A stretch of 64,000 nucleotides of DNA from Caldilineaceae bacterium (lineage in GTDB: Bacteria > Chloroflexota > Anaerolineae > Caldilineales > Caldilineaceae): contig JAPOVP010000096.1 of assembly GCA_026708085.1 (NCBI GenBank), forward strand, positions 1 to 64,000, written 5' to 3'. The notes below the pieces were generated by a model. That model was not told the origin of the DNA. It searched no databases and worked only from the letters and a program-made list of their open reading frames with translations. The stretch's first letter is position 1. Each line of letters begins with the position of its first letter. Shown in pieces: positions 26,806 through 60,269 of the stretch. Made by a program: the position numbers and the translations under genes.

Positions 26806-27231
26806 CACAAGTCCAACAGATAAGACCATGAACCGGAGTAGTAGCGTTCGGAGCGGGTTCCAGAGAGTCCCGGAAGGGTGGAAACGGGATAGCAGCGCAG
26901 AGCGTGAATGGACCGGGGAGTCGGACGGCGAACAGTTGTGACCTAAAGATCGGAGGGCGACTATTCCTGCTTACTGATCTGAGTCACGCTTACTAGCCTC
27001 TCCCGGAGACGCCACCGTTATCAGGGCGCTGCAGTTCAGACAATTGCGCTGCCGAGCGAGATCGTCTGAATGCGTTGAGTGAGACTGGTGCGAGCATCCC
27101 TTGCGTTTCATGCAAGGGATTTTTGTTGTCCGTCATTTACCAGTCTAAACAGGGTGGCACCGCGGGCGTCATTATAGACCTCGTCCCTTTGAGCAGTTGC
27201 TATAGACTGCTATGGGAGACGAGGTTTTTTG
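26806..27231 (+). promoter_or_regulatory. Tryptophan-responsive T-box riboswitch
   Basis: The leader carries the main T-box elements in order. Stem I has AGAGAG at 26862-26867 and a GGGTGGAAAC segment. The specifier loop GAATGGACC has codon UGG (Trp) at 26909-26911, followed by the usual GGGGAGT. Stem III is formed by AGACTGGT (27082-27089) and ACCAGTCT (27139-27146), enclosing a 9-bp hairpin (27096-27104 with 27112-27120). The T-box proper, AGGGTGGCACCGCGGG, is at 27151-27166. The variable base of its UGGN bulge is C, which pairs with discriminator G73, the base in bacterial tRNA-Trp. Uncharged tRNA-Trp should stabilise the antiterminator and allow readthrough into trpE. Confidence 0.93.
27178..27230 (+). 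terminator. T-box intrinsic terminator
   Basis: ACCTCGTCCC (27178-27187) pairs with GGGAGACGAGGT (27214-27225) across one mismatch, with an inner AGCAGT/ACTGCT stem and a T6 tract at 27225-27230. It lies 12 bases after the T-box sequence and 48 bases before the trpE ATG, as expected for transcription attenuation. Confidence 0.88.
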
Positions 27232-44391: not shown

Positions 44392-45201
44392 TTACCCGTC
44401 CACCCCTCCGTGGCTGCCGGCCGCCAACTCCTCCGCCAACGTAGATACGGCGTCGACGCCCGCCTCCGCGCCGGCGGCTTTCACCAGCGCCGAACCGACG
44501 ACGACTCCCTCGACGATCTCGGACACCCTTGCGGCCTGCGGGCCGGTACTGATCCCGAAGCCGACCGCCAAGGGCAAGTCGGTGTGACGACGCACGCGTT
44601 CAACGAAGGCGGGCAGATAAGTCGGCAGCTCATCGCGAGCGCCGGTGATTCCGGTTACGCTCACGAGATAGATGAAACCTGTGGAATGCCGGGCAACCGA
44701 CTTTATGCGCTCTTCGGTGCTGGTGGGGGCAAGCATGTAGATAGTGGCCAATCCGGCAGCACGACAGGCAGGCTCCAGTAGCTCCGACTCTCCTGGCGGC
44801 AGATCGGGGACGATCAGCCCGTCGATTCCGGCACTGGCCGCGGCTTTTGCAAAGCGCTCTTCCCCGAAGGCAAGAATTGGATTGTAGTAGCTCATGGCGC
44901 AAAAGGGCGTGTCAACGCCCTGGTCACGCAGCTCGCGCGCCATCTTGAGGCAGTCGGCAACGGAAGTGCCGCCAACGAGCGCCGCATAGGTGGCCGTCTG
45001 AATTGTCGGCCCGTCGGCCAGGGGGTCGCTGTGAGGTATGCCAAATTCGACGATGTCCGCGCCGGCTCTCGCCAGGGCAGCGACTACCTCCAGAGACTGC
45101 TGCCGGGTGGGATAGCCCATGGCATGGTAGGGCATGAAGGCAGCGGCGCCAGTCGTTTTCAGTTGGCGAAAGACCTGCTCGATCCGTTCGACGCCCTTCA
45201 T
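44392..45201 (-). CDS. trpA: Tryptophan synthase alpha subunit
   Basis: A 269-residue barrel subunit that cleaves indole-3-glycerol phosphate to indole. The signature [18 protein letters not shown] (usual form has F for H) and the catalytic Glu/Asp positions are present, along with [15 protein letters not shown] and the GFGISTG phosphate site. It is the last gene of the minus-strand aromatic operon, 29 bases after trpB, so the Trp pathway is split: trpE-G-D-C-F on one strand, trpB-A on the other. Confidence 0.96.
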
Positions 45202-45230
45202 CTTTCACCTCTCGCCCGAAGCTTGCCCAT

Positions 45231-46481
45231 CTATCTGTCTCCTCCGATTGTCTGCATGACCGTACCCAGATCCTTGTCGCCGCGTCCGCTGAGATTGACC
45301 AAAATCACCTGGTCCCGGGCCATCTGCGGGGCCAACTCCAACACGTAGCCGATGGCATGTGCACTTTCCAATGCAGGGATAATCCCTTCCAGTTCGCACA
45401 GTGCACTGAATCCCTTGAGAGTCTGTGAATCCGTGCAGTAGGTGTATTCCGAGCGTCCCACATCTCGAAGCCACGCGTGCTCCGGGCCCACGCTGGCGTA
45501 ATCCAAGCCAGCAGAAATCGAATGGGTCAGTGCAATTTGTCCGTCACTATCTTGAAGCACGTAGCTCTTGGTACCCTGAAGTACGCCGAGCCGGCCCCGC
45601 TCAGGGTCTGCGAAACGAGCGGCATGGGCCCCGTCTTCGATTCCGTGTCCGCCTGCCTCAACGCCGATTAGTCGAACACTTTCCTCCTCAAGAAATGGAT
45701 GGAAGATGCCTATGGCGTTACTGCCTCCGCCAACGCAGGCTACGATCGCATCGGGCAGCCGGCCCGGGCCGCCTTCAGCGGGATCCTGCATTTGGCTGTG
45801 GGCCTCTGTGCCGATGATGGACTGGAAATCCCGGACCATGGCAGGGTAGGGATGGGGGCCAAGTGCGCTGCCCAGCAGGTAGTGGGTGGTTTCTACGTTT
45901 GTAACCCAGTCTCGGATGGCTTCATTGATGGCGTCCTTAAGCGTCTGCGAGCCGCTGTCGACCGCTCGCACCTCGGTACCGAGGAGCTGCATGCGAAAGA
46001 CATTGGGCTTCTGACGTTCCATGTCCACCGTGCCCATATAGACAATGCATTCGATTCCCAACAGCGCAGCCGCTGTGGCGGTGGCGACGCCGTGCTGGCC
46101 GGCGCCAGTTTCGGCCACGATGCGCGTTTTGCCCATCTTGCGCTTCATCAGCAGGGCCTGACCCAAAGCATTGTTGATCTTGTGGGCGCCGGAGTGGGCG
46201 AGGTCTTCCCGCTTCAGGTAGATCTGGGCTCCGCCTAACTCTTCACTCAGGCGGCGGGCATAGGTCAGTGGGGTCGGACGTCCAACGTACGTGTGCTGCA
46301 GATGGGCCAGCTCAGCCATGAACTCCTGGTCAATGCGGGCGTTCAGGTATGCTTCTTCCAGTTCGTCCAGAGCCGGCATGAGCGTCTCCGGCACGTACTT
46401 GCCGCCGTACGGGCCGAAACGCCCCGTCTCATCCGGAACAGCGCTGAAGTTAACAGGTGTCGATGTTGTCGAAAGAGTCAT
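45231..46481 (-). CDS. trpB: Tryptophan synthase beta subunit
   Basis: A 416-residue PLP enzyme condensing indole and serine. The PLP lysine lies in [15 protein letters not shown], the glycine-rich phosphate loop is GGGSNAIG, and [19 protein letters not shown] is the substrate region. [21 protein letters not shown] at the N-terminus identifies the TrpB1 class that pairs with TrpA. The frame is open upstream to 46613, inside aroE, but the ATG at 46481 with AGGAA before it gives the standard length. Confidence 0.97.
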
Positions 46482-46524
46482 CAGTTCCTCGCATTCGGTC
46501 TTGTGACGGGTACCCATTGGACCG

Positions 46525-47460
46525 TCATCTGCGCTCGAAAATGATATTTGTAGCCTGCTGCATGACAGCCACAGGCGCGGTTTCGCCGGTCCACTTTTCC
46601 CAGGCGATAGCACCCTGGTAAACGAGCATTCCCAGGCCTCCTATGGCTGTGGCCCCATCGGTAGAGGCCAGCTGTAGCAGTCTGGTCATGGCCGGATTGT
46701 AGACCAGGTCGTAGACGATCTGATCTTCGCGGAATTCAACATTTTCCTCCCAAGGGAGCCCTTCGATGCGCGGCTCCATACCCAGCGATGTGCAGTTGAC
46801 GATCAGGTCCGCGCCCTGGGAACTGGCTGTCACATCATCAGGGAAGGAGGCGCCGTTAATACTTATCTCAGGGAAGTACGATTGCATAGTCGCCGCCAGA
46901 TCGACAGCCTTGGTCACGGTGCGGTTGAGAATCTTGACACTTTCCACCCCGGCGTCTGCCAGTCCGTATACGACTGCCCTCGAGGAGCCGCCCGCCCCTA
47001 TCACCAGCGCCCGCTTGCCTTCAGGCTCAACGCTGTGAGCTTGAAGATCGGCAATAAAACCTGCGCCGTCTGTATTGTCCCCAGTGAGTTGACCATCTTT
47101 TTCAACGACAATTGTATTGACAGCGCCAATGGCTTCGGCCGCGGGCGTCCAGTGCTGCAAGTGGGGCATGACCGCCTGCTTGTGGGGTACGGTCACGTTG
47201 ACCCCTCTCAGTCCCAGTGCGGGCAAGGCGGCGACAGCCGCGGGTACCCTGTCTGGCGGCACTGCGAAGGCCAGGTAACGCCAGTTCATCTGGCGTGCCA
47301 CGAACGCGGCGTTGTGCATTTGCGGGCTGATAGAATGAGTGACCGGCCAGCCGAAGAGCCCAACAAGCGTTGTCGCGGCATTGATGTCGGTAGGAAATAT
47401 TTCTGAATCAGCCTCATTTGAAGGGAGGGAGACCGATTCATTCTGCAGGAGTTCACTCAT
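46525..47460 (-). CDS. aroE: Shikimate dehydrogenase
   Basis: A 311-residue NADP-dependent enzyme reducing 3-dehydroshikimate (step 4). The substrate site has [11 protein letters not shown], the catalytic Lys is in [14 protein letters not shown] with NTIV and NTDGAGF, and the cofactor loop is GAGGSSRAV followed by LNRT. An N-terminal tail of about 30 residues precedes the usual start. The ATG at 47460 lies 8 bases inside the end of aroA, so the genes are coupled; a GTG two codons earlier is an alternative. Confidence 0.95.
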
Positions 47461-48784
47461 CGTCACTTGCCCAATCCAGCTCTTGCACGTTTACGTTGAG
47501 CGCGCGCAAGGTAGATTCGAAACCGGGAAAACTGTCGGCGGTAACGTGCGCTTTATGAATGGTGGTCTCCCCGCCGGCAATCACGGCGGCCACGGCCAGT
47601 GCCATCGCCAGCCTGTGATCGCCGTGGCTGTCTACGGTGGTGCCCTTAAGCGGCGTCGGCCCGTCCACGATGAAACCGTCGGCAGTCTCCTGAATCCGTG
47701 CACCCATCTTCTTGAGTTCTGAGACGGTCGTGGCGATTCGATCGGTCTCTTTTACGCGCAATTCCTGGGCGTCGCGCACAACAGTGCGCCCTTCGGCCTG
47801 TGTCGCCGCTACGGCCAGTACGGGCAACTCGTCGATCATTGTGACGATTTGCGATCCGCCGAACTCCAAGCCCCGCAATCCGCCGCCGCTGACGATCAGG
47901 TCTGAAACGGGCTCACCGCCCTGAAGCGGCCGTTCTCTGCGCCGAATCCTGGCCCCCATCTCTGAGAGAGCATCAACAATCCCGGTCCGGGTCGCATTGA
48001 CACCCACATCTACGATCGTCAGATTACTGTCCGGCAACGCAGACGCCCCAACCAACAGGAAGGCAGCCGAGGAGATATCGCCGGGAACCAGAATGTTGAG
48101 AGGATTGAGCGGGGAGTGGGGGCGCTCGCTATGGGTCGTGTTGCCCAGTGCTGTAACTGGGGCGCCCATCGATTTCAACATGCGTTCGGTATGGTCGCGT
48201 GCAGGTCCGGGCTGGTGAACGACCGTCAGTCCGTGGGCGTAGAGGCCTGCCAATAGGAGACAGCTCTTAACCTGGGCGCTGGCGACCGGCATCTCGTATT
48301 CGATAGCGGAGAGGCGGGAGGGAATGATCGTGAGGGGCGCGTACCGGCCATTTTGGCGTCCGAAAATCTGGGCCCCCATCGTGCGCAAAGGGTCGACAAT
48401 CCGCGCCATAGGACGCCCGCGAATCTGGGCCGTCCCGCTGAGTATGCTTACAAACTCCTGTCCAGCCAGCAGACCTGATAGAAGCCGCATCGTCGTACCG
48501 CTGTTGTCGCAGTCGAGCACATCGTTCGGCTCCTTCAAGCCGTCGAGGCCGACGCCGTGAACCTCGAGGCGCGTGCTGCTGATCTCGTCGATGCGCACGC
48601 CCATCGCCCGCATGATGTTCATCGTGGCCCGACAGTCGTGGCCGTCGAGAAAGTTACGAATGTGACTGGATCCTTCGGCAATAGAACCGAAGATCACTGC
48701 CCGATGGCTGATGGACTTATCCCCAGGGACCCCGCACCGACCGACGAGAGGACCTTCACTGCTGATTTTGAGTATGTCTGCCAT
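47453..48784 (-). CDS. aroA: 3-phosphoshikimate 1-carboxyvinyltransferase (EPSP synthase)
   Basis: A 443-residue two-domain enzyme joining shikimate-3-phosphate to phosphoenolpyruvate (step 6). PGDKSISHRA is the N-terminal substrate loop, NSGTTMRLL the PEP-binding signature, GDISSAAF and KETDRIATT the C-terminal domain motifs. The residue just before NSGT is Asp (LDCDNSGT) where Gly is common. No ribosome site is visible before the ATG at 48784, and a 121-base gap separates it from tyrA. Confidence 0.96.
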   Translation of the reverse strand: MADILKISSEGPLVGRCGVPGDKSISHRAVIFGSIAEGSSHIRNFLDGHDCRATMNIMRAMGVRIDEISSTRLEVHGVGLDGLKEPNDVLDCDNSGTTMRLLSGLLAGQEFVSILSGTAQIRGRPMARIVDPLRTMGAQIFGRQNGRYAPLTIIPSRLSAIEYEMPVASAQVKSCLLLAGLYAHGLTVVHQPGPARDHTERMLKSMGAPVTALGNTTHSERPHSPLNPLNILVPGDISSAAFLLVGASALPDSNLTIVDVGVNATRTGIVDALSEMGARIRRRERPLQGGEPVSDLIVSGGGLRGLEFGGSQIVTMIDELPVLAVAATQAEGRTVVRDAQELRVKETDRIATTVSELKKMGARIQETADGFIVDGPTPLKGTTVDSHGDHRLAMALAVAAVIAGGETTIHKAHVTADSFPGFESTLRALNVNVQELDWASDDE

Positions 48785-48905
48785 AGGAGGTTTCGGTTGA
48801 ATTGGTACGGACTTTCTTGAGTTTGTTCAATATGGGTCTCTCTGGCGCGCTCTGTCGCGTGCCTTGAATTGTGTAGCCTAACCGCGACGACTGGTGAGGC
48901 CTCAT

Positions 48906-49805
48906 TCAGCCCTGCGCCGAAGTGGTGAACGCACCTTTCTTTTGCTGCCATGCAGCACGCGTAGCCTGAGAACAGGAGAGCATACGCCATAGAGAGTCTT
49001 CATCGTTCTCTGCGAGCAGTCTTCGCAGTTCCTGAAAATGCGCGCTTACTGTGTCCATCTGTGCCAGAACAGCCTCTCGATTGGTCACCAGAATGTCCAG
49101 GAACATCTGTGTATCGCTAGCTGCCACCCGGCTGGTGTCGCGAAACCCGCCTGCTGCCAGATCCCAGACGGCGGGGTCTTCGTCCCCGCAATCGCTGACG
49201 GCATGCACCAAGGCACTCGCCATTAGAAAGGGCAGATGGCTGATGGCAGCAACAAGCTGGTCGTGGCGGGCTGGCTGCATAGTGGTTGGGAAGGCCCCGA
49301 TTGCCTCCGCCAATTCGGATGCCAGCTCGACTGTTTCGTTCGAGGTGCGCGGCAGGGGCGTCAGCACCCATGGAGCCCCCTCGTAGAGACCGCTTTCTGC
49401 GGAAGCGTAGCCCGCGGTCTCTTTGCCGGTCATGGGATGGCCGCCAATCGGCTGAACTCGTGGAGGCAGCCGTTCCATGGCCGCACAGATCTCGGCTTTG
49501 GTGCTTCCCATATCCATTACTACCGTGCCCGGCCACAGTATGGGGCCTAGCGTCTCCAGCATCTGGACGACCGCGCGTACAGGTGTGGACAAGATGACAA
49601 TGTCGGCTCCGGCGACTCCAGAACTGAGATCGGTAGTCGCCAAGTCGACTGAATTTTCATGAAAGGCGCGCAGGATCGTGCCGAAGTTGCGGGTAACGCC
49701 CCTCACTTCGCGGCACAGGTTGCGTTGTTTCAGGTCTATGCAGAGGCTTGCACCCATCAGGCCAAGCCCGATGACTGTAACACTGCACTCGGAAAGAGAT
49801 TTCAT
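48906..49805 (-). CDS. tyrA: Prephenate dehydrogenase
   Basis: A 299-residue NAD(P)-dependent enzyme making 4-hydroxyphenylpyruvate for tyrosine. The Rossmann motif is GLGLMGAS. The substrate-binding [22 protein letters not shown] and [12 protein letters not shown] segments are typical. No ACT or chorismate mutase domain is fused, consistent with a separate aroH gene in the operon. It could use arogenate instead; sequence alone does not decide. Confidence 0.94.
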
Positions 49806-49892
49806 GTATAGATTGCCGTTGCCTGGTTGCTGCCCCTGTTTAGCCAGTCAAGACGGTCAAATGAATGCTGCCTCGTGACCAAGTTCCAGGAA

Positions 49893-50909
49893 TCAGAGTT
49901 GACGTCCAACGGCACTGGCTATAGATTTCAGCTCCTGCATCAATGAGCCGAAGTGCTCAAAAGTCAGACTTTGGGCGCCGTCGCTCCAAGCCTTTGACGG
50001 GTCCGGATGTACTTCGATCATCAGTGCATCTGCCCCTGCGGCAACCGCGGCCTTCGCAATGGGGGCTACGTATTCCCACTGGCCCGTTCCGTGTGCCGGG
50101 TCGGCCACGACGGGTAGGTGAGTCAACTGCTTCAAGACGGGGATGGCATTGATGTCAAAGGTGTTGCGGGTGGCTGTCTCGTAAGTCCGGATGCCGCGCT
50201 CACAGACCATCACCTGCATGTTTCCGTTGCTCAGAATGTACTCGGCCCCCATCAGCAGCTCTTGAATCGTGCCGCTGATGCCCCGCTTCAGGAAGACTGG
50301 TTTGGTCGTTTTGCCCACGGCCTTCAGGAGGGGATAGTTCTGATTGTTGCGGGCGCCAATCTGAAAGATGTCAGTGTAGTCGCCAACCAGTTCGATATCC
50401 TCGGAACTCATCACTTCAGTTATGATTGGGAGGCCTGTCTGCTCTCTGGCCTCAGCCAGGTACTTGAGGCCTTCTTCACCCAGGCCCTGGAAGCTGTATG
50501 GGCTACTGCGCGGTTTGAACGCACCGCCGCGGAGAACTGAGCCGCCGGCTTCTTTGACAGCGTGCGCCGTCTCCAAAATCTGCTCGCGGCTTTCCACACT
50601 GCAAGGACCGGCCATAACTACGACTTTCTCACCGCCGATGTCTGTGCCATTGACGGGGATTGTGGTCGACGATTGGACGAAGTCGCGGCTGGCGTACTTG
50701 TAGGGCTGCATTATGCGGACTGTTTTTTCCACTCCTTCAAGGACTTCGAATGTGTCCTGTTGGATGAGATAGTCGTCGGCGCCGATGATGCCCACAATGG
50801 TACGGGCTTCTCCGCGGCTCAGATGAACTTTGTATCCGAGCTCTTCAACGCGCTTGACGACTTCCTCTACTTGATCCTGCGAGGCTCCTTGCCTCATTAC
50901 AACAATCAT
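49893..50909 (-). CDS. aroF: 3-deoxy-7-phosphoheptulonate (DAHP) synthase, type I-beta, copy 1
   Basis: A 338-residue DAHP synthase catalysing the first step of aromatic synthesis. Residues about 1-70 form a ferredoxin-like domain that in related enzymes binds Tyr or Phe for feedback control. The catalytic barrel starts near [16 protein letters not shown] and has [17 protein letters not shown], metal-binding Cys, and VADPAHGTG plus [15 protein letters not shown]. It is a tandem paralogue of the gene 104 bases upstream, with long identical stretches. Confidence 0.95.
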
Positions 50910-51012
50910 TGACAGATCCTTTCTTGGTTAAGTTGCGCGGCTCAGATATCGATGTAGATTGCGCCCTGCGATAGATCGGGCCTATGCCTCTCGAAAGACT
51001 GTTCGGGGCTGC

Positions 51013-52116
51013 TCAGGCCAACACGGCACCCGTCTCCACTTGAACTTTATTTGTCACTTCACTATCCGAGGATTGAGCCTGTTCAACTGTTGCCGGTGGC
51101 GCGGCGATCGAGCGGCCTACGGCCTCTGCGACTTTGCGCAGCGAGCACATCAGCTCGGCAAACCGTTCCGGCTTGAGACTCTGATCTCCGTCACTTAAGG
51201 CTGACTCCGGGTCGGGGTGGACCTCCAAAATGAGGGCATCTGCTCCGGCCGCGACCGCCGCCAGAGACATCGGCGGCACGAGTTCCCAGTCGCCCGTGCC
51301 ATGGGCCGGGTCGGCGACTACGGGAAGATGTGAGGCCCGCTTCAGGACAGGAATGGCGTTGAGATCAAATGTATTGCGGGTTGCTGTTTCGTAGGTACGG
51401 ATGCCGCGTTCGCACAGCATCACCTGCATGTTCCCGTTGCTCAGAATATACTCGGCGCACATCAGTAGTTCCTGGATTTCGCCGCTAAGGCCGCGCTTGA
51501 GCATGACCGGTTTTCGAGTCTTGCCGACTGCTTGGAGCAGTGCGTAATTCTGCATATTGCGGGCACCTATTTGGAGGATATCCACGTACTCGGCCACCAG
51601 TTCGATCGTCTCGACAGTCATCACTTCGGAGATGACCGGCAGGCCTGTGACCTCTCTGGCCTCGGCCAAGTACTTCAGCCCCTCTTCGCCAAGCCCCTGG
51701 AAGCTGTACGGGCTGGTACGAGGCTTGAAAGCACCGCCTCTCAGTACGCTGGCGCCGGCCTCTCTGACAGCGATGGCGGTCTGGATAATCTGCTCCCTGC
51801 TCTCGACACTGCACGGCCCGGCCATTACAACAACGCGGTCGCCCCCGAAGTGGACGCCGTTCACGTCAATGAAAGTACCTTCGGGACGCGTTTCTCTGCT
51901 TGCAAGCTTGTACGGGTCCTGGATCCGCACTGTCTTTTGCACACCCGACATTGCATCAAAGGTCGCCCTTTGCACTTGGGTCAAGTCGCCGAGAAGGGCG
52001 ATAACGGTATGACTTTCGCCACTGATTGGTTGAGTTTGAGCGCCCATTGAGGCAGCGCGCTTGACTACGTTTTCTATCTCGATTACAGATGCCTGAGGCT
52101 TCATTACGACAACCAT
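51013..52116 (-). CDS. aroF: 3-deoxy-7-phosphoheptulonate (DAHP) synthase, type I-beta, copy 2
   Basis: A 367-residue DAHP synthase with the same domain order as its neighbour: regulatory ferredoxin-like domain (about residues 1-70), then the barrel with [33 protein letters not shown] and [14 protein letters not shown]. The N-terminal regulatory domain has diverged far more than the barrel, and there is an extra 30-residue Gln/Ser/Val-rich C-terminal tail. This suggests that the two copies respond to different amino acids. Confidence 0.95.
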
Positions 52117-52215
52117 TTATCTCTCCTCTATCGTGAACTCTTATTCAAAGGATTAGACATTCATTGTCAAAGGCGCATTGGCTATCCTCTACCAGAGATT
52201 GATATCCTCGGCATT

Positions 52216-53073
52216 CTATATCTGCAACATAGCTTCTTGTGCAAACTCTTCAGGGGTAGGTTGCACGGCTGCGGGGTAACTGCCCAGCATTTTGACAAAC
52301 GCTGCCCTGTTGAGCAGTCCCAGGACAGCAGCACTGCAGTCAGGTTCCTGCCAATGACCCTCGAAGTCCAGATAGAAAACGTATTGCCAGGGCCGGTTGC
52401 GGCGCGGGCGGCTCTCCAGTTTGACGAGGTTAATGTTGCGTTCGGCGAACTCGCCGAGACAGGCGTAGAGTGCGCCCGGGCTGTGCGGTGTGGCAAAGAC
52501 GAGGGATGTCTTGGAGTTCGGCGACTGTTGGGCATCGCCTTTGCCGATGACAAAGAAGCGCGTGAAATTGAAGTGCAGGTCTTCGATGCCCTGTTGGACA
52601 ATCTCCAAGTCATAGATTTCGGCTGCCAGCGCACTTGCTATCACCCCCACCTTCGGCTCCGGATGCTCTGCAAGTTCCTTTGCGCTGCCGGCCGTGTCAT
52701 ACCAGGGTATGGCTGTGTAGCCGTGGCGGTTGAGAAAGCTTTCGCACTGTGCCAGGGCCTGGGGATGGCTGCGCACCTGTTCAATGTTGTCGCCATTGCC
52801 CGGCAGAGTCAGCAGGTTGTGCCGCACACGCAACAGGATTTCTCCTTGGACCCGAAAATCATGATCCAGTAAGAGGTCATAGGCTTTATTAATGCTACCG
52901 GCGAGCGAGTTTTCCACAGGCACAACGCCCACAGTAGAGCGGTCATCATCCAACGAAGCAAATATATCCTCAAATGTTCTGATGGGCAGGGTATCGACCT
53001 CTGCGCCGAACTGTTGCCGGATAGCCTCTTCGGAGTATGCGCCGTGCTCTCCCTGAAAAGCTACTACAGTCAT
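52216..53073 (-). CDS. pheA: Prephenate dehydratase
   Basis: A 285-residue enzyme making phenylpyruvate. The catalytic domain (about 1-180) has [32 protein letters not shown] and the FTRFFVIGK motif (usually TRF). An ACT domain follows with [26 protein letters not shown], where ESRP is the phenylalanine-binding signature, so feedback by Phe is expected. The frame opens to 53148, but the ATG at 53073 gives the standard N-terminus. It is monofunctional; the mutase is the separate aroH. Confidence 0.95.
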
Positions 53074-53144
53074 CGGATTACTCCATGGTTGTCTGACGTC
53101 GAAACTGATCGATATCCCAGTCCCAAGTGTCCAATTCGGCGCCG

Positions 53145-53582
53145 TCAAGACCAGTTCTTCAACTGCTCATCAATCCATTGATTCAGCTCGTCCAAGTCGA
53201 TTTCGGATGCCAGTCTCTTGTCGGGGCGCAGAGCCTCAGCCTCTTTCAAATAGACATGCTGGATTTCCTTCTGCGGTGTATCGGTATTCCAGTTGATCAG
53301 GATGCGAATACAAAGTGGCACAGTGTCCGCAACACGCATTTCATGGCCACACAGCATCGGCACATCCATCCAACCCAACTGCCGGGCGGCCAGCGCGGGG
53401 AATTGACTGACCACATCGATAGTTGTCGTAAAGATTGCACTGGCCACGTCTTCAGATTGGATATTGTTAAGACGAATCATTAATGCCAACAGTTCTCTGG
53501 TTGCCCGTAGAATTGATTCGGGCGTGTCCTCTTCAATGGTTGTTGCGCCCCGCACACCTCGACAGATCACAGTTTTCTCCAT
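53145..53582 (-). CDS. aroH: Chorismate mutase, AroH type
   Basis: A 145-residue protein of the Bacillus AroH class (trimeric, barrel-like). [19 protein letters not shown] holds the active-site Arg, and [29 protein letters not shown] and the VPLCIRILI strand follow. About 25 residues extend past the usual end. It is the first structural gene after the attenuator and converts chorismate to prephenate for both Phe and Tyr. The ATG at 53582 is preferred; GGAGGA lies some 12 bases upstream, and a GTG seven codons earlier is possible. Confidence 0.92.
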
Positions 53583-53704: not shown

Positions 53705-53736
53705 CAAAAAAAGCGTGGAGTTCGTCTCCACGCTTT
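53705..53736 (-). terminator. Attenuator terminator of the aromatic operon
   Basis: Read on the minus strand, an 11-bp perfect stem (AAAGCGTGGAG / CTCCACGCTTT) with a 5-base loop, running directly into a T7 tract. It sits 24 bases after the leader ORF stop and about 120 bases before aroH, where a read-or-stop decision would be made. Confidence 0.9.
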
Positions 53737-53799
53737 GAGTGTCTTTACGTTGACTGCCCTTACACAGCCCAACGCTCCTCAACCAGCGGAGACGGTTGG
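53723..53799 (-). promoter_or_regulatory. Competing antiterminator and protector pairings of the attenuator
   Basis: On the transcript, CGUCUCCGC (53794-53786) can pair with GCGUGGAGACG (53733-53723), the 5' arm of the terminator, with a 2-base bulge; this would be the antiterminator. The same CUCC is also locked in an alternative hairpin CCAAC-CGU-CUCC / GGAG-C-GUUGG (53799-53769). The first arm, CCAAC, lies four codons after the aromatic codon run, within reach of a ribosome stalled there. The order (codon run, arm 1, arm 2, arm 3, arm 4) matches the classical trp attenuator. Pairings were found by eye, not by energy calculation. Confidence 0.68.
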
Positions 53800-53990
53800 T
53801 TCACGCCAAAATAATAACCAAACCAAAAGTTGCCAAAAGAAAACCCGCGCCACTCATGGCGCAGGTTGCTAGACAACAGGATCTCAGCGGCCGACGGGCC
53901 ATCCAACAGGTTGATCGGCAGAAGAGAGTCGTCTTCGCTACGAATCAGATCGGCGATTGTAACGGGTGCTTCGCTTCGTTCGGTAGTCAC
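53760..53990 (-). CDS. Aromatic-rich leader peptide of the aro/phe/tyr/trp operon
   Basis: A 76-codon ORF between the operon promoter and its attenuator terminator. Residues 1-46 contain no Phe, Tyr or Trp; Trp47 follows, then residues 50-61 read FSFGNFWFGYYF, eight aromatic residues in twelve (five Phe, two Tyr, one Trp). The C-terminus is VNQPSPLVEERWAV. I infer a leader peptide whose translation stalls when any of the three charged tRNAs runs short. The start is a GTG (53990) with only GGA about 12 bases upstream, and no ATG is in frame, so initiation is the weak point. It is longer than classical leaders (14-35 codons). A 6-bp hairpin (53847-53862) sits just before the run. Confidence 0.68.
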   Translation of the reverse strand: MTTERSEAPVTIADLIRSEDDSLLPINLLDGPSAAEILLSSNLRHEWRGFSFGNFWFGYYFGVNQPSPLVEERWAV

Positions 53991-54047
53991 TCTGTCGAAT
54001 CGTCCTATTGGCAGGGCGGCTAGCGTTTCTTCAGGACATTGAGGGAG

Positions 54048-54076
54048 AGATTACCACAAGGAAAAACAGATGTCAA
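54048..54076 (-). promoter_or_regulatory. Sigma-70 promoter of the minus-strand aromatic operon
   Basis: TTGACA (54076-54071 on the minus strand), a 17-base spacer and TAATCT (54053-54048), the best promoter match in the window. The transcript would start near 54041, giving a leader of about 460 bases before aroH that contains the aromatic ORF and the terminator. Confidence 0.78.
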
Positions 54077-56113: not shown

Positions 56114-56775
56114 AACTCTCAACGTCAGAAAACCTTGCCGTCGTTGACCACCTGCTTACGACCACCCGCTCGGTACGTAAGCGGCTGGACCTGAACCGAC
56201 CGGTTGAACGCGAGGTCATTGAAGAGTGTCTGGAGATCGCGGCCCAGGCCCCCAGCGGCAGCAATCGTCAGGGCTGGCACTTCGTGGTGGTAACCGATGC
56301 GGAGAAGAAACGCTTTATCGCCGAGCGGTACCGGAAGGCATGGTACGGATACAATGCCACCCGCAACGTGGGTGAAGGGCCGAATCTGACAACAGAGGAG
56401 AAACAGCTGCTGCGCGTGATCAGCTCCGCTCAGTATCTGGCCGACAACATGCAGGATGTTCCCGTCCTGGTGATTCCCTGCATCGAAGGCCGCCCGGAAG
56501 ATGCTGCGCCGGCTTCGCAGGCTGGTGTATATGGCTCGATTCTGCCGGCGGCATGGTCGTTGATGTTGGCGCTGCGCGCCAGAGGACTAGGCTCTGCCTG
56601 GACCACTTTGCACCTGCAGAGCGAGGGGGAAATCGCTGAGAAGTTGGGCATCCCCGACGGTATCTCACAGGCCGCGCTACTGCCGGTCGCCTACTTCAAG
56701 GGAGACGACTTTCGCCCGGCCAGACGGAAGCCGATGCGTGACAGGACCTATTGGGATAGCTGGCAGACAGCATGA
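56110..56775 (+). CDS. Nitroreductase-family protein
   Basis: A 222-residue FMN-dependent NAD(P)H oxidoreductase-like protein. RSVRKRLDLNRPVEREVIEECLEIAAQAPSGSNRQGW contains the phosphate-binding Arg/Ser pattern, and LALRARGLGSAWTTLHL is the second flavin segment. Physiological substrates of the family are diverse, and no specific reaction is implied. It is translationally coupled at both ends, by 4-base overlaps with the Uma2 gene and with the EndoQ-UvrD gene. Confidence 0.86.
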   Translation: MKLSTSENLAVVDHLLTTTRSVRKRLDLNRPVEREVIEECLEIAAQAPSGSNRQGWHFVVVTDAEKKRFIAERYRKAWYGYNATRNVGEGPNLTTEEKQLLRVISSAQYLADNMQDVPVLVIPCIEGRPEDAAPASQAGVYGSILPAAWSLMLALRARGLGSAWTTLHLQSEGEIAEKLGIPDGISQAALLPVAYFKGDDFRPARRKPMRDRTYWDSWQTA

Positions 56776-59700
56776 AACTTGTCGCCGATATTCATCTGCA
56801 CTCCCACTATTCGCGAGCAACCAGCAAGAATCTGACCCTAGAGCATCTGTGGAAATGGGCACAGCTCAAAGGGGTACAGGTGGTGGCCACGGGCGACATC
56901 GCCCACCCGGGCTGGCTGGCAGAGTTACAGATGAAACTGGATCCGGCCGAGGAAGGGTTATTTCAGCTCAAGCCGGAGTACCAAGCTACAGTCGCCGATG
57001 AAGTGCCTCCGGCCTGCAGGGGGACGGTACGTTTTTTGATCGGCGGCGAAATCAGCAACATCTACAAGAAATATGACCGCACGCGCAAGGTACACAACAT
57101 CGTCTTTGCGCCGTCCTTCGAGGCGACCACAATACTGCAGGGCGAACTGGAAAAGATCGGCAACATTCGCGCGGACGGTCGCCCTATTCTGGGACTGGAC
57201 AGTCGCGACCTGTTGGAAATCGTCCTGGAGGTGGACGACCGCTGCCATCTGATTCCTGCCCACATATGGACTCCCTGGTTTTCGATTCTCGGTTCAAAGT
57301 CCGGTTTCGATTCGGTTGAAGAGTGCTTCACCGACCTTACTCCCCACATCTTTGCTGTCGAGACGGGTCTCTCATCGGACCCACCAATGAACTGGCGTGT
57401 TTCCTGGCTGGACAGGTACACTCTCGTCTCCAATTCCGACGCTCACTCGCCGCCAAAGCTAGCTCGAGAATCCACCCTGTTTGACACAGATCTGAGCTAC
57501 GACTCAATGTTCAGTGCCCTGCAGAGCGGGGACCCCGCTGCGTTTCTAGGCACCATCGAGTTCTTCCCGGAGGAGGGCAAATATCACCTGGACGGCCATC
57601 GCAAGTGCGGGGTCTGCTGGGAGCCGGTCACAACGATCGCAAATGAGGGACTTTGTTCCAACTGCGGCAAGCCGGTGACTGTCGGCGTCTATCACAGGGT
57701 AGAAGAACTGGCCGACCGAGACCCCGGCGCACGTCCGAACTCTGCGGCGCCTTTCACGAGCCTCATTCCATTGCCCGAGGCGCTGAGTGAAGTTCTCGGC
57801 GTTGGCCCCAACTCCAAACGTGTACAGACTGAATATCTGCGACTTTTGGGGAGATTGGGACCGGAGCTTGAGATCCTGCGGGCTATACCTCTCGAAGATA
57901 TCTCTACAGCTGGCGGCCCCGTTTTGGCCGAGGGGATCCGCCGAATGCGTGAAGGCAAGGTGGTTGCGCAGAGCGGTTACGACGGCGAATACGGTGTTAT
58001 CCGCATGTTCGATGGGGAAGCCGACCAGCTTTCTTCGTTCCAACTCGGGATGTTTGCGGGCCAGCCGGCGTCTGCGAAGGAGGAACGCGGCGCGACGTCG
58101 GAGGTACTGAAGCCTGCCACCGAGAATGAGCCGAGTCTGCTGCCGAAAGAAGCCGAGGCACCCGCAGAGAACGCTCTGGCAGATGGGGAAGTCCAGTACA
58201 GTTTGCCGCTTGAGGTAGCACCCAGTGAAGTTGAACTCCCGCGCCCTCCTTTAAGCCAGGGGGCAAACGGCCAAGGCGAGGCCGACTGGTTCGGTCAGTT
58301 GAATGCCGAACAGCAGGCAGCCGCAGCCCATACAAATACGCCATTGGCGATCGTGGCCGGACCAGGTACCGGCAAGACTCGCACATTGACCGTGCGTATT
58401 GCGCGTCTGATCGAGAAGGTGGGCGTGGCGCCGTCTTCAATTCTGGCAGTTACGTTTACGAACAGGGCTGCAGAAGAGATGCGGGAGCGGCTGGACGAAC
58501 TCCTGGGCACAGAAAGCTCGGCACACATCACAGTTGGGACGTTTCATCAGTTGGGCGCCAGCTTGCTCAGGGAATTCGGGGCGGCGATCGGAGTTTCCCA
58601 GAACTTTACGATTCTCGCAGATGCGGAGCGGCAGACAGTTCTGAGACGGGCCTGCCCGCTGTTGGGAGCAAGGGAGTCTCGGGATGCCTTGGAGGCGATT
58701 TCTGCGCGCAAGAGCGGTGCAACTGCGGTGAACGCATACGGTGAAGTCCAGGGGAGCGAGAGCGACATATGGGCGAGCTATCAGGCCGCCCTAAAGGAGG
58801 CCAACGCGCTCGATTTCGACGACCTGATTCTACGCGCCGTACAGCTGCTGGAGACGGATGCTTCCGTCCTGAATACGGTCCAAGCTCGCTTTCGCTGGAT
58901 CTCGGTGGATGAGTTTCAGGATGTGAACGCGGCACAACACCGCCTGTTGTCTTTGCTGGTCGCGGGGGGCGCCAACCTGTGCGTCATAGGTGACCCGGAT
59001 CAGGCAATCTACGCCTTTCGAGGGGCGGATCACCGCTACTTTCTCTCCTTTGAGGACGACTACCCTGGGGGCAAGCGACTTCATCTGGAGAGAAACTACC
59101 GTTCGGCCCAGACCATTCTGGACGCTGCCATGCAGGTGATTTCGCGCAATCCCGACCATCAGGCAACCAACCTGATTGCCGACTTTGCCGAGCAGGTAAA
59201 GTTAGACGTATATCGCGCCCCCACAGACAGAGCTGAAGCAGAGTACCTCGTCCACCAAGTGGAACAGATGGTGGGCGGGGTCAGCTACTTTTCTTTGGAC
59301 TCCGGGCGCGTAGACGAAGGCGGCCTGCCTGAGGACTTTACATTTGGCGATTTCGCCGTCCTCTACCGTCTCAACACGCAGGGCAGACTGATAGAAGAGG
59401 CCTTTGAGCGCTCAGGCATTCCCTACTCGACTCTAGGGGGCCCGGCTCTGACAGAGCAGAGCCCCGTACGGGAGATTCGGGCGCTTCTGTGGCTCACGCA
59501 GACGCCGGAATGTTACGTCCATTGGGGACAGATCCTGACGGAAGGGAAGCGGGCGCTAAGCGGTGAAGCAGTGGCAGAACTGTTGGCGTCGAAGAACTCT
59601 GAGACTGAGGAGAGACCTGCGTCACCGTCTTGGCTCGAGCTTTTGGCAGTTGCGTCCAGAACCGGCACCCTGCGGCAGCCTCAGCGAGAGAGGCTGACAG

Positions 59701-60269
59701 AGACGATCGAGCTTGTGAAGATTCTGGAGGGCGATCCCTCGGCGCCCCTGTCATCGCAGATTCAGACTGCGGCTTCCGGATGGGAAGCGCTGCGCGGCAC
59801 CGAATACGGCGACGCCGAAAAAGAACGAATCGAGCGCTTTCAGCGCAGGGCGGCGCCCTTCAGAAGCAGGCTACAAGAGTTCCTTACGACTTTGGCATTG
59901 CAGAGCGAAGCAGACCAGTACGACAGGCGGGCGGACCGGGTGACGCTAATGAGTCTCCACGCAGCCAAAGGACTGGAGTTCCCTGTCGTGTTCATTGCAG
60001 GTTGTGAAGAGGGACTTCTGCCTTATACGCCCGCCAACCGTGACGTGGACTTGGACGAGGAGCGGCGGCTGTTTTATGTAGGCATGACACGTGCCCAGCG
60101 GCGGTTGATCCTGACGCATGCCGGGCGGCGTTTCTTGTTTGGGCAGGCGATGGAAAACCCGCTCTCTGGCTTTGTCACCGACATTGAAGCGGCCTTGCAG
60201 GAGGTGCGGCAGGCCCAACCGCGCCGGTCCAGCAAGAGAGATGAAGACCGGCAGTTGCGACTGTTCTAG
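56772..60269 (+). CDS. EndoQ-like PHP endonuclease fused to UvrD-type DNA helicase
   Basis: A 1165-residue fusion. Residues about 1-430 resemble endonuclease Q, which cuts DNA 5' of deaminated bases: a PHP domain with DIHLHSHYS, GGEIS, PAHIW and SNSDAHS metal motifs, then a zinc finger with Cys279, Cys282, Cys295 and Cys298, and a helix-hairpin-like part. A Glu/Pro-rich linker (about 430-510) leads to a superfamily 1A helicase with Walker A at 530-536 (GPGTGKT), VDEFQD at 712-717, GDPDQAIYAFRGA, SLHAAKGLEFP and YVGMTRAQRR. A coupled incision and unwinding machine for damaged DNA is a reasonable inference. It is coupled to the nitroreductase gene by an ATGA overlap. Confidence 0.88.
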   Translation: MKLVADIHLHSHYSRATSKNLTLEHLWKWAQLKGVQVVATGDIAHPGWLAELQMKLDPAEEGLFQLKPEYQATVADEVPPACRGTVRFLIGGEISNIYKKYDRTRKVHNIVFAPSFEATTILQGELEKIGNIRADGRPILGLDSRDLLEIVLEVDDRCHLIPAHIWTPWFSILGSKSGFDSVEECFTDLTPHIFAVETGLSSDPPMNWRVSWLDRYTLVSNSDAHSPPKLARESTLFDTDLSYDSMFSALQSGDPAAFLGTIEFFPEEGKYHLDGHRKCGVCWEPVTTIANEGLCSNCGKPVTVGVYHRVEELADRDPGARPNSAAPFTSLIPLPEALSEVLGVGPNSKRVQTEYLRLLGRLGPELEILRAIPLEDISTAGGPVLAEGIRRMREGKVVAQSGYDGEYGVIRMFDGEADQLSSFQLGMFAGQPASAKEERGATSEVLKPATENEPSLLPKEAEAPAENALADGEVQYSLPLEVAPSEVELPRPPLSQGANGQGEADWFGQLNAEQQAAAAHTNTPLAIVAGPGTGKTRTLTVRIARLIEKVGVAPSSILAVTFTNRAAEEMRERLDELLGTESSAHITVGTFHQLGASLLREFGAAIGVSQNFTILADAERQTVLRRACPLLGARESRDALEAISARKSGATAVNAYGEVQGSESDIWASYQAALKEANALDFDDLILRAVQLLETDASVLNTVQARFRWISVDEFQDVNAAQHRLLSLLVAGGANLCVIGDPDQAIYAFRGADHRYFLSFEDDYPGGKRLHLERNYRSAQTILDAAMQVISRNPDHQATNLIADFAEQVKLDVYRAPTDRAEAEYLVHQVEQMVGGVSYFSLDSGRVDEGGLPEDFTFGDFAVLYRLNTQGRLIEEAFERSGIPYSTLGGPALTEQSPVREIRALLWLTQTPECYVHWGQILTEGKRALSGEAVAELLASKNSETEERPASPSWLELLAVASRTGTLRQPQRERLTETIELVKILEGDPSAPLSSQIQTAASGWEALRGTEYGDAEKERIERFQRRAAPFRSRLQEFLTTLALQSEADQYDRRADRVTLMSLHAAKGLEFPVVFIAGCEEGLLPYTPANRDVDLDEERRLFYVGMTRAQRRLILTHAGRRFLFGQAMENPLSGFVTDIEAALQEVRQAQPRRSSKRDEDRQLRLF

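Follow-up and report, generated by a model that had tools for sequence, protein, structure and literature searches.

In the trp, pheA and his attenuators of E. coli, a leader ORF that includes a stretch of regulatory codons is followed by mutually exclusive antiterminator and terminator structures, the downstream operon serves the same amino acids, and a hairpin with pause geometry is present. In ilvGMEDA-type attenuators, which belong to branched-chain amino acid operons of gamma-proteobacteria, a single leader monitors several end products of a branched pathway. T-box leaders (RF00230) also sense uncharged tRNA and act by antitermination in amino-acid operons, but they read the tRNA directly and without translation. 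The hairpin-stabilized pause sites of hisL, trpL, and pheL have their hairpin about 10-11 nt upstream of the pause consensus (PMC9291695); in the known leaders the pause comes after the regulatory codons, and ribosome-polymerase synchrony is held by theory to be required for sharp attenuation (PMC1183508). Leader-peptide attenuation has been described mainly from Proteobacteria and Actinobacteria: according to a 2010 survey, no leader-peptide system was known outside these two groups before its own Firmicutes cases (PMC2965389), and a 2013 survey considered a gamma-proteobacterial origin of such attenuators possible (PMC3766115).

Here we describe a leader located upstream of aroH in a Caldilineaceae bacterium (Chloroflexota), within a 64-kb window that comprises the whole stretch of DNA analyzed. 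It shares with the E. coli trp, pheA and his attenuators the leader ORF with a regulatory codon run, the mutually exclusive antiterminator and terminator, the operon for the same amino acids and the hairpin with pause geometry; however, its run mixes Phe, Tyr and Trp codons, the leader is long (64-86 codons in the long leaders of this kind), the pause-like hairpin lies before the regulatory codons with a U-tract that encodes the first of them, the antiterminator encloses the stop codon, and there is neither a sequence relation nor an Rfam match. The locus likewise resembles ilvGMEDA-type attenuators in that one leader would serve several end products of a branched pathway, but no sequence is shared with them. 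The preliminary description of this locus had read it as a ribosome-mediated attenuator. That reading has held up, since relatives retain the reading frame, the aromatic codons and the terminator, selection for translation is evident, and folding favors the alternative structures. We consider it very probable that the leader is a ribosome-mediated transcription attenuator of the trp/phe/ilv type.

The sigma-70-type promoter (54048..54076, minus strand) can be read directly as TTGACA at 54076-54071, a 17-nt spacer, and TAATCT at 54053-54048. Almost every relative with upstream DNA has TTGACA, a 17-18 nt spacer and a TAnnnT box at a similar distance, about 120-220 nt 5' of the internal hairpin P1 discussed below. 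The leader ORF (53760..53990, minus strand) begins with GTG at 53990, its codon 76 ends at 53763, and the TAA stop occupies 53762-53760. Promoter and 76-codon ORF are present where the preliminary description had placed them, and two weak points that it had named are real: the ribosome site of the GTG start is poor, an AGGA lying distant, about 12 nt upstream, and the leader is longer than the classical ones. The nine-gene aromatic operon aroH-pheA-aroF-aroF-tyrA-aroA-aroE-trpB-trpA (44392..53582, minus strand) was likewise named correctly, as NCBIfam and Pfam matches identify chorismate mutase AroH, prephenate dehydratase, two DAHP synthases, prephenate dehydrogenase, EPSP synthase AroA, shikimate dehydrogenase AroE, TrpB, and TrpA. 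The gene order behind the leader is the same in the relatives examined. The two tandem DAHP synthase genes (51013-52116 and 49893-50909, minus strand) belong to the same subfamily; a single copy was seen in genome G004 and in genus g16, and genome G036 carries two adjoining trpA-like matches at the operon end (L142, 7286-9144). Elsewhere in the window, an ORF of 1165 aa (56772-60269, plus strand) resembles, by eye, a PHP-type phosphoesterase fused to a UvrD/PcrA-type helicase.

Direct reading of the leader peptide gives no aromatic residue among residues 1-46, W47 being the first, and 8 aromatic residues out of 12 in the predicted regulatory codons FSFGNFWFGYYF (residues 50-61; 53808..53843, minus strand), which agrees with the earlier count of two-thirds and none. 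This is the sole place in the six frames of the window with at least seven F/W/Y in 12 codons, and thus the run is not a product of chance. An exact motif scan of genome contigs retrieved 29 Caldilineaceae contigs and six scattered chance matches, while a profile of 14 leaders found one copy each in 38 of the 46 Caldilineaceae genomes, covering 14 of 17 genera; the genome collections used are species samples with many metagenome-assembled members. Three genera escaped the profile: g16 and g6 have aromatic-rich leaders before aroH too, and in the genome of g4 aroH was not found. In all Caldilineaceae genomes with enough downstream sequence, the leader precedes aroH or pheA of the same operon.

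The order of the aromatic run and the identity of its F, Y and W residues drift between genera and families, variants among lineages including FSFGNFWFGYYF, FSFGGYWFSYYFF, FSFGYYYFSFS, and FSFAFYFYFFSF; such drift is expected if it is the codons that are read rather than a fixed peptide. Every leader seen has Phe and Tyr codons, and Trp codons occur in the run of most Caldilineaceae genera. The proposal that one leader reads all three aromatic tRNAs suits the mixed run of the window, but does not extend to genera g11, g16, and g6 or to family f15, in which Trp is absent from the run. By this comparison, the constant core predicted to be sensed is Phe and Tyr, and sensing of Trp would not be shared by all lineages. 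Nor do Trp codons strictly accompany trpBA: a link of this kind was considered and rejected, since the run of g16 lacks Trp and its operon keeps trpBA.

Codon-level purifying selection indicates that the leader frame is read. Among 16 same-genus genomes, pN/pS is 0.18 for the whole ORF and, by segment, 0.57 for codons 1-10, 0.11 for codons 11-42, 0.06 for codons 43-49, 0.00 for codons 50-61 (where pN is 0), and 0.17 for codons 62-76. Frame, aromatic codons and terminator have also been retained in relatives. This sequence comparison shows the ORF to be translated.

The segment of codons 11-42 (TIADLIRSEDDSLLPINLLDGPSAAEILLSSN; 53865..53960, minus strand), which has no aromatic codons, calls for separate consideration. 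Its pN of 0.048 and pS of 0.44, with four-fold sites that vary while the amino acids stay, indicate that residues 11-42 are selected as a peptide, which is unusual for a leader and is not explained by codon reading. The conservation of this N-terminal peptide (LLPIxLLDGPTAxE...) is limited to five genera, across which WRGFSFGxFWFGYYF is invariant. In E. coli tnaCAB, nascent-peptide arrest switches a catabolic operon on when Trp is high. Conservation of residues 11-42 at the amino-acid level and the invariant segment in the five genera would also suit a TnaC-like arrest, in which the peptide (conserved over residues 11-61) stalls the ribosome on a free aromatic amino acid and the downstream RNA switch reads this out. 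We regard this explanation as improbable: the N-terminal part is unrelated outside the five genera, the biosynthetic operon would need a response opposite to that of tnaCAB, and the run is also found in short leaders of about 27 codons. Moreover, no strict peptide near the peptidyl-transferase center is kept across lineages, as the run drifts among F, Y and W and loses Trp in some of them.

The same purifying selection could be taken to mean that the product of the ORF is a small protein with a function in trans and that the terminator is incidental, for which the trans-acting leader peptide peTrpL offers a precedent (PMC7298713). However, the leader peptide has no match in Pfam or NCBIfam, its AlphaFold model from a shallow alignment shows no confident fold (pLDDT 57.6, pTM 0.23), the tail and P1 are constrained as RNA, and lineages sharing the RNA switch do not share the peptide, all of which makes such a protein a highly improbable explanation of the locus.

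The RNA switch of the proposed attenuator lies at the 3' end of the ORF and beyond it. A terminator scan identified an intrinsic terminator (53707..53736, minus strand) with a stem of 11 pairs (53736-53710) and a T run ending about 125 nt 5' of the likely aroH ATG (53582), close to the distance of about 120 bases given in the preliminary description for its 11-bp terminator with T tract; each of the 34 Caldilineaceae leaders folded has a terminator hairpin. When the transcript is folded up to the terminator loop, 53794-53786 pairs with 53731-53723. The predicted antiterminator thus consists of a 5' arm CGTCTCCGC (codons 66-69; 53786..53794, minus strand) and a 3' arm GTGGAGACG (53723..53731, minus strand) that overlaps the 5' arm and loop of the terminator, and it encloses a stop-codon hairpin, P3 (CGTTGgGCTG...CAGTCAACG; 53748..53774, minus strand), observed in folds of L001 and relatives. 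Because a bulge distinguishes the two main arm types, the pairing was assessed by the energies of cognate and non-cognate combinations in place of all-lineage covariation counts. Cognate arm-terminator pairs average -25.7 kcal/mol vs. -20.9 kcal/mol for non-cognate pairs (24 lineages, permutation p < 1e-4); as comparison of the lineages shows, arm and terminator differ between them and stay matched. The preliminary description had given weight to a CCAAC/GGTTG hairpin as a competing element; the conserved arm is instead CGTCTCCGC at 53794-53786, downstream of CCAAC. The CCAAC/GGTTG hairpin was also rejected as the main anti-antiterminator, being without conservation in other genera.

The dependence of this switch on ribosome position was modeled by footprint-masked folding, a thermodynamic model only, in which the ribosome masks the RNA up to 12 nt beyond where the A-site codon starts. 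In the leader of the window, the predicted probability of the antiterminator is about 1 with the ribosome at any codon as far as the last one of the aromatic run, and drops sharply at codon 63-64. Of the 34 leaders, nearly all show a fall below 0.5 within about 1-5 codons past the last aromatic codon, secondary peaks further downstream being seen in L045, L047, and L065. At the last aromatic codon, the natural sequences give 0.98 vs. a mean of 0.63 for synonymous recodings of the tail; recoding weakens the antiterminator strongly in type A leaders and weakly in several type B leaders. The expectation that alternative structures are favored at the predicted ribosome positions is thereby supported. 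With the ribosome at the stop codon, free-energy folding still allows the antiterminator if the RNA pairs across the ribosome, and thus the model needs steric exclusion or timing.

A covarying internal hairpin, P1, is an element missed in the first reading of the locus, as was the selection on residues 11-42 described above. It lies inside the ORF, from the end of codon 42 to codon 49 (CCTGCGCCA-TGAG-TGGCGCGGG; 53844..53865, minus strand), directly 5' of the aromatic run, and its 9-bp stem has a terminator-like or pause-like appearance. In 28 distinct sequences, 97.2% of the cells are paired and five pairs have changes on both sides, whereas slid controls reach 23-51%. Directly 3' of P1, TTTTCTTTTG serves both as the U-tract and as codons F50-S51-F52; this U-tract (TTTTCTTTT; 53835..53843, minus strand) is nearly invariant, and the pause spacing with the G-10, Y-1, G+1 signature is found in 25 of the 28 sequences. 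Like the hairpins at the hisL, trpL and pheL pause sites, P1 is about 10-11 nt upstream of the consensus site; unlike them, it precedes the regulatory codons, and a pause here is a prediction from its sequence signature. The terminator scan flagged P1 with its U-tract as terminator-like, with a score near that of the real terminator under a re-implemented terminator score. Across lineages, aromatic residues are depleted 5' of P1 (12 observed vs. 27.5 expected, p 6e-4); a total absence before P1 was rejected, since outside the genus there is depletion only.

The attenuator could be real and P1 a by-product of the coding sequence without any role in pausing or termination, given that P1 lies within a coding region under amino-acid selection and that relatives with short leaders (about 25-30 codons, f28 and f71) do not have it. 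Several of the compensatory changes, however, fall at synonymous sites, for instance CTG/CGC to CTA/CGT in L088, and therefore point to selection on P1 as RNA; none of 500 shuffles reaches its pairing, the U-tract is conserved, and P1 is present in f1, f15, f24, and f33, the U-tract of the latter two being TTTTATTTT, i.e., Phe-Tyr-Phe. On balance, a by-product is unlikely. Since folding predicts that an untranslated leader adopts the antiterminator, P1 as a pause or terminator could stop untranslated RNA from reading through, or could bring the ribosome into step.

The distribution of aromatic leaders extends beyond the Caldilineaceae. In other Chloroflexota families, an aromatic run, defined as at least six aromatic residues in 12 codons, lies 5' of aroH in 32 of 58 loci, while the same criterion is satisfied by 0 of 58 antisense, 2 of 56 downstream, and 1 of 290 shuffled controls. 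The mixed aromatic leader, thought unusual in the preliminary description, is hence the common state before aroH in many Chloroflexota families. A downstream terminator was detected in 26 of these 32 loci, and the cognate arm-terminator energy is -19.7 vs. -16.6 kcal/mol for non-cognate pairs (p < 1e-4) across the 26 loci, one of which, L175, looks like a false positive. At the same threshold, aromatic leaders were found outside the class in f107, f110, and some members of f71, and were absent in f76, f102, and f109. The loci L159-L217 (f4, f7, f8, f24, f28, f29, f34, f71, f107, and others) show aromatic-rich leader ORFs, both short and long, with a terminator whose core, AGCGTGGAGC, is strikingly alike from family to family.

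A second amino-acid leader is found in the same window. The trpE cluster, ordered trpE-trpS-trpG-...-trpD-trpC-...-trpF-aroC, spans 27.2-36.4 kb on the plus strand and is preceded by a T-box leader (RF00230; 26819-27191, plus strand; 89.1 bits, E 5e-20). Its score is 4 bits below the Rfam gathering score, and it is therefore missed by a default scan. By eye, the specifier position in the alignment is UGG (Trp); an extra hairpin with a T run, at about 27097-27127, separates Stem I from the T-box sequence. The presence of this T-box might suggest that the aroH leader is also a T-box or another known riboswitch rather than a ribosome-read leader. That is extremely improbable, as the aroH leader matched no Rfam family at curated thresholds or even at a permissive E-value, in the same search that found the trpE T-box. 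The Trp-specific genes thus appear to use direct tRNA sensing, and the common operon the ribosome.

Regulatory codons, a translated ORF, a terminator, a matched antiterminator and a switch governed by ribosome position have all been found in silico; translation, the covarying P1, the alternative pairing and a switch point matching the end of the aromatic run are features that sequence comparison shows. In the proposed attenuator, the ribosome would translate the leader ORF behind RNA polymerase, which would pause at P1, or terminate there if no ribosome comes; the pause would presumably last until the ribosome reaches and melts P1, after which both would move in step. With uncharged tRNA for Phe, Tyr or Trp, the ribosome would stall in FSFGNFWFGYYF and leave the arm 53794-53786 free to pair with the 5' half of the terminator, so that the operon is transcribed. 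When the tRNAs are charged, the ribosome would pass codon ~63 and cover the arm, the terminator would form, and transcription would stop. We tentatively propose, as a plausible reading short of a probable one, a two-checkpoint attenuator in which P1 pauses or terminates the polymerase in the absence of a ribosome and the downstream switch then responds to the charging of Phe, Tyr and Trp tRNAs, the whole being an old Chloroflexota system whose N-terminal peptide gained a function of its own in one branch.

A literature search with partial journal coverage retrieved no description of an aromatic attenuator from Chloroflexota; an earlier one is possible, and the novelty is provisional. Within these bounds, what is new in the predicted system is the mixed aromatic codons, the long leader, the internal hairpin sharing its U-tract with the first regulatory codons and the wide spread among Chloroflexota. 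The internal hairpin offers a testable idea for ribosome-polymerase synchrony in long leaders. The aromatic amino acids would be sensed jointly, for the common pathway, and since such leaders recur 5' of aroH in many Chloroflexota families and match no known leader family, the attenuation principle seems to have been put to use in these bacteria independently, and possibly long ago.
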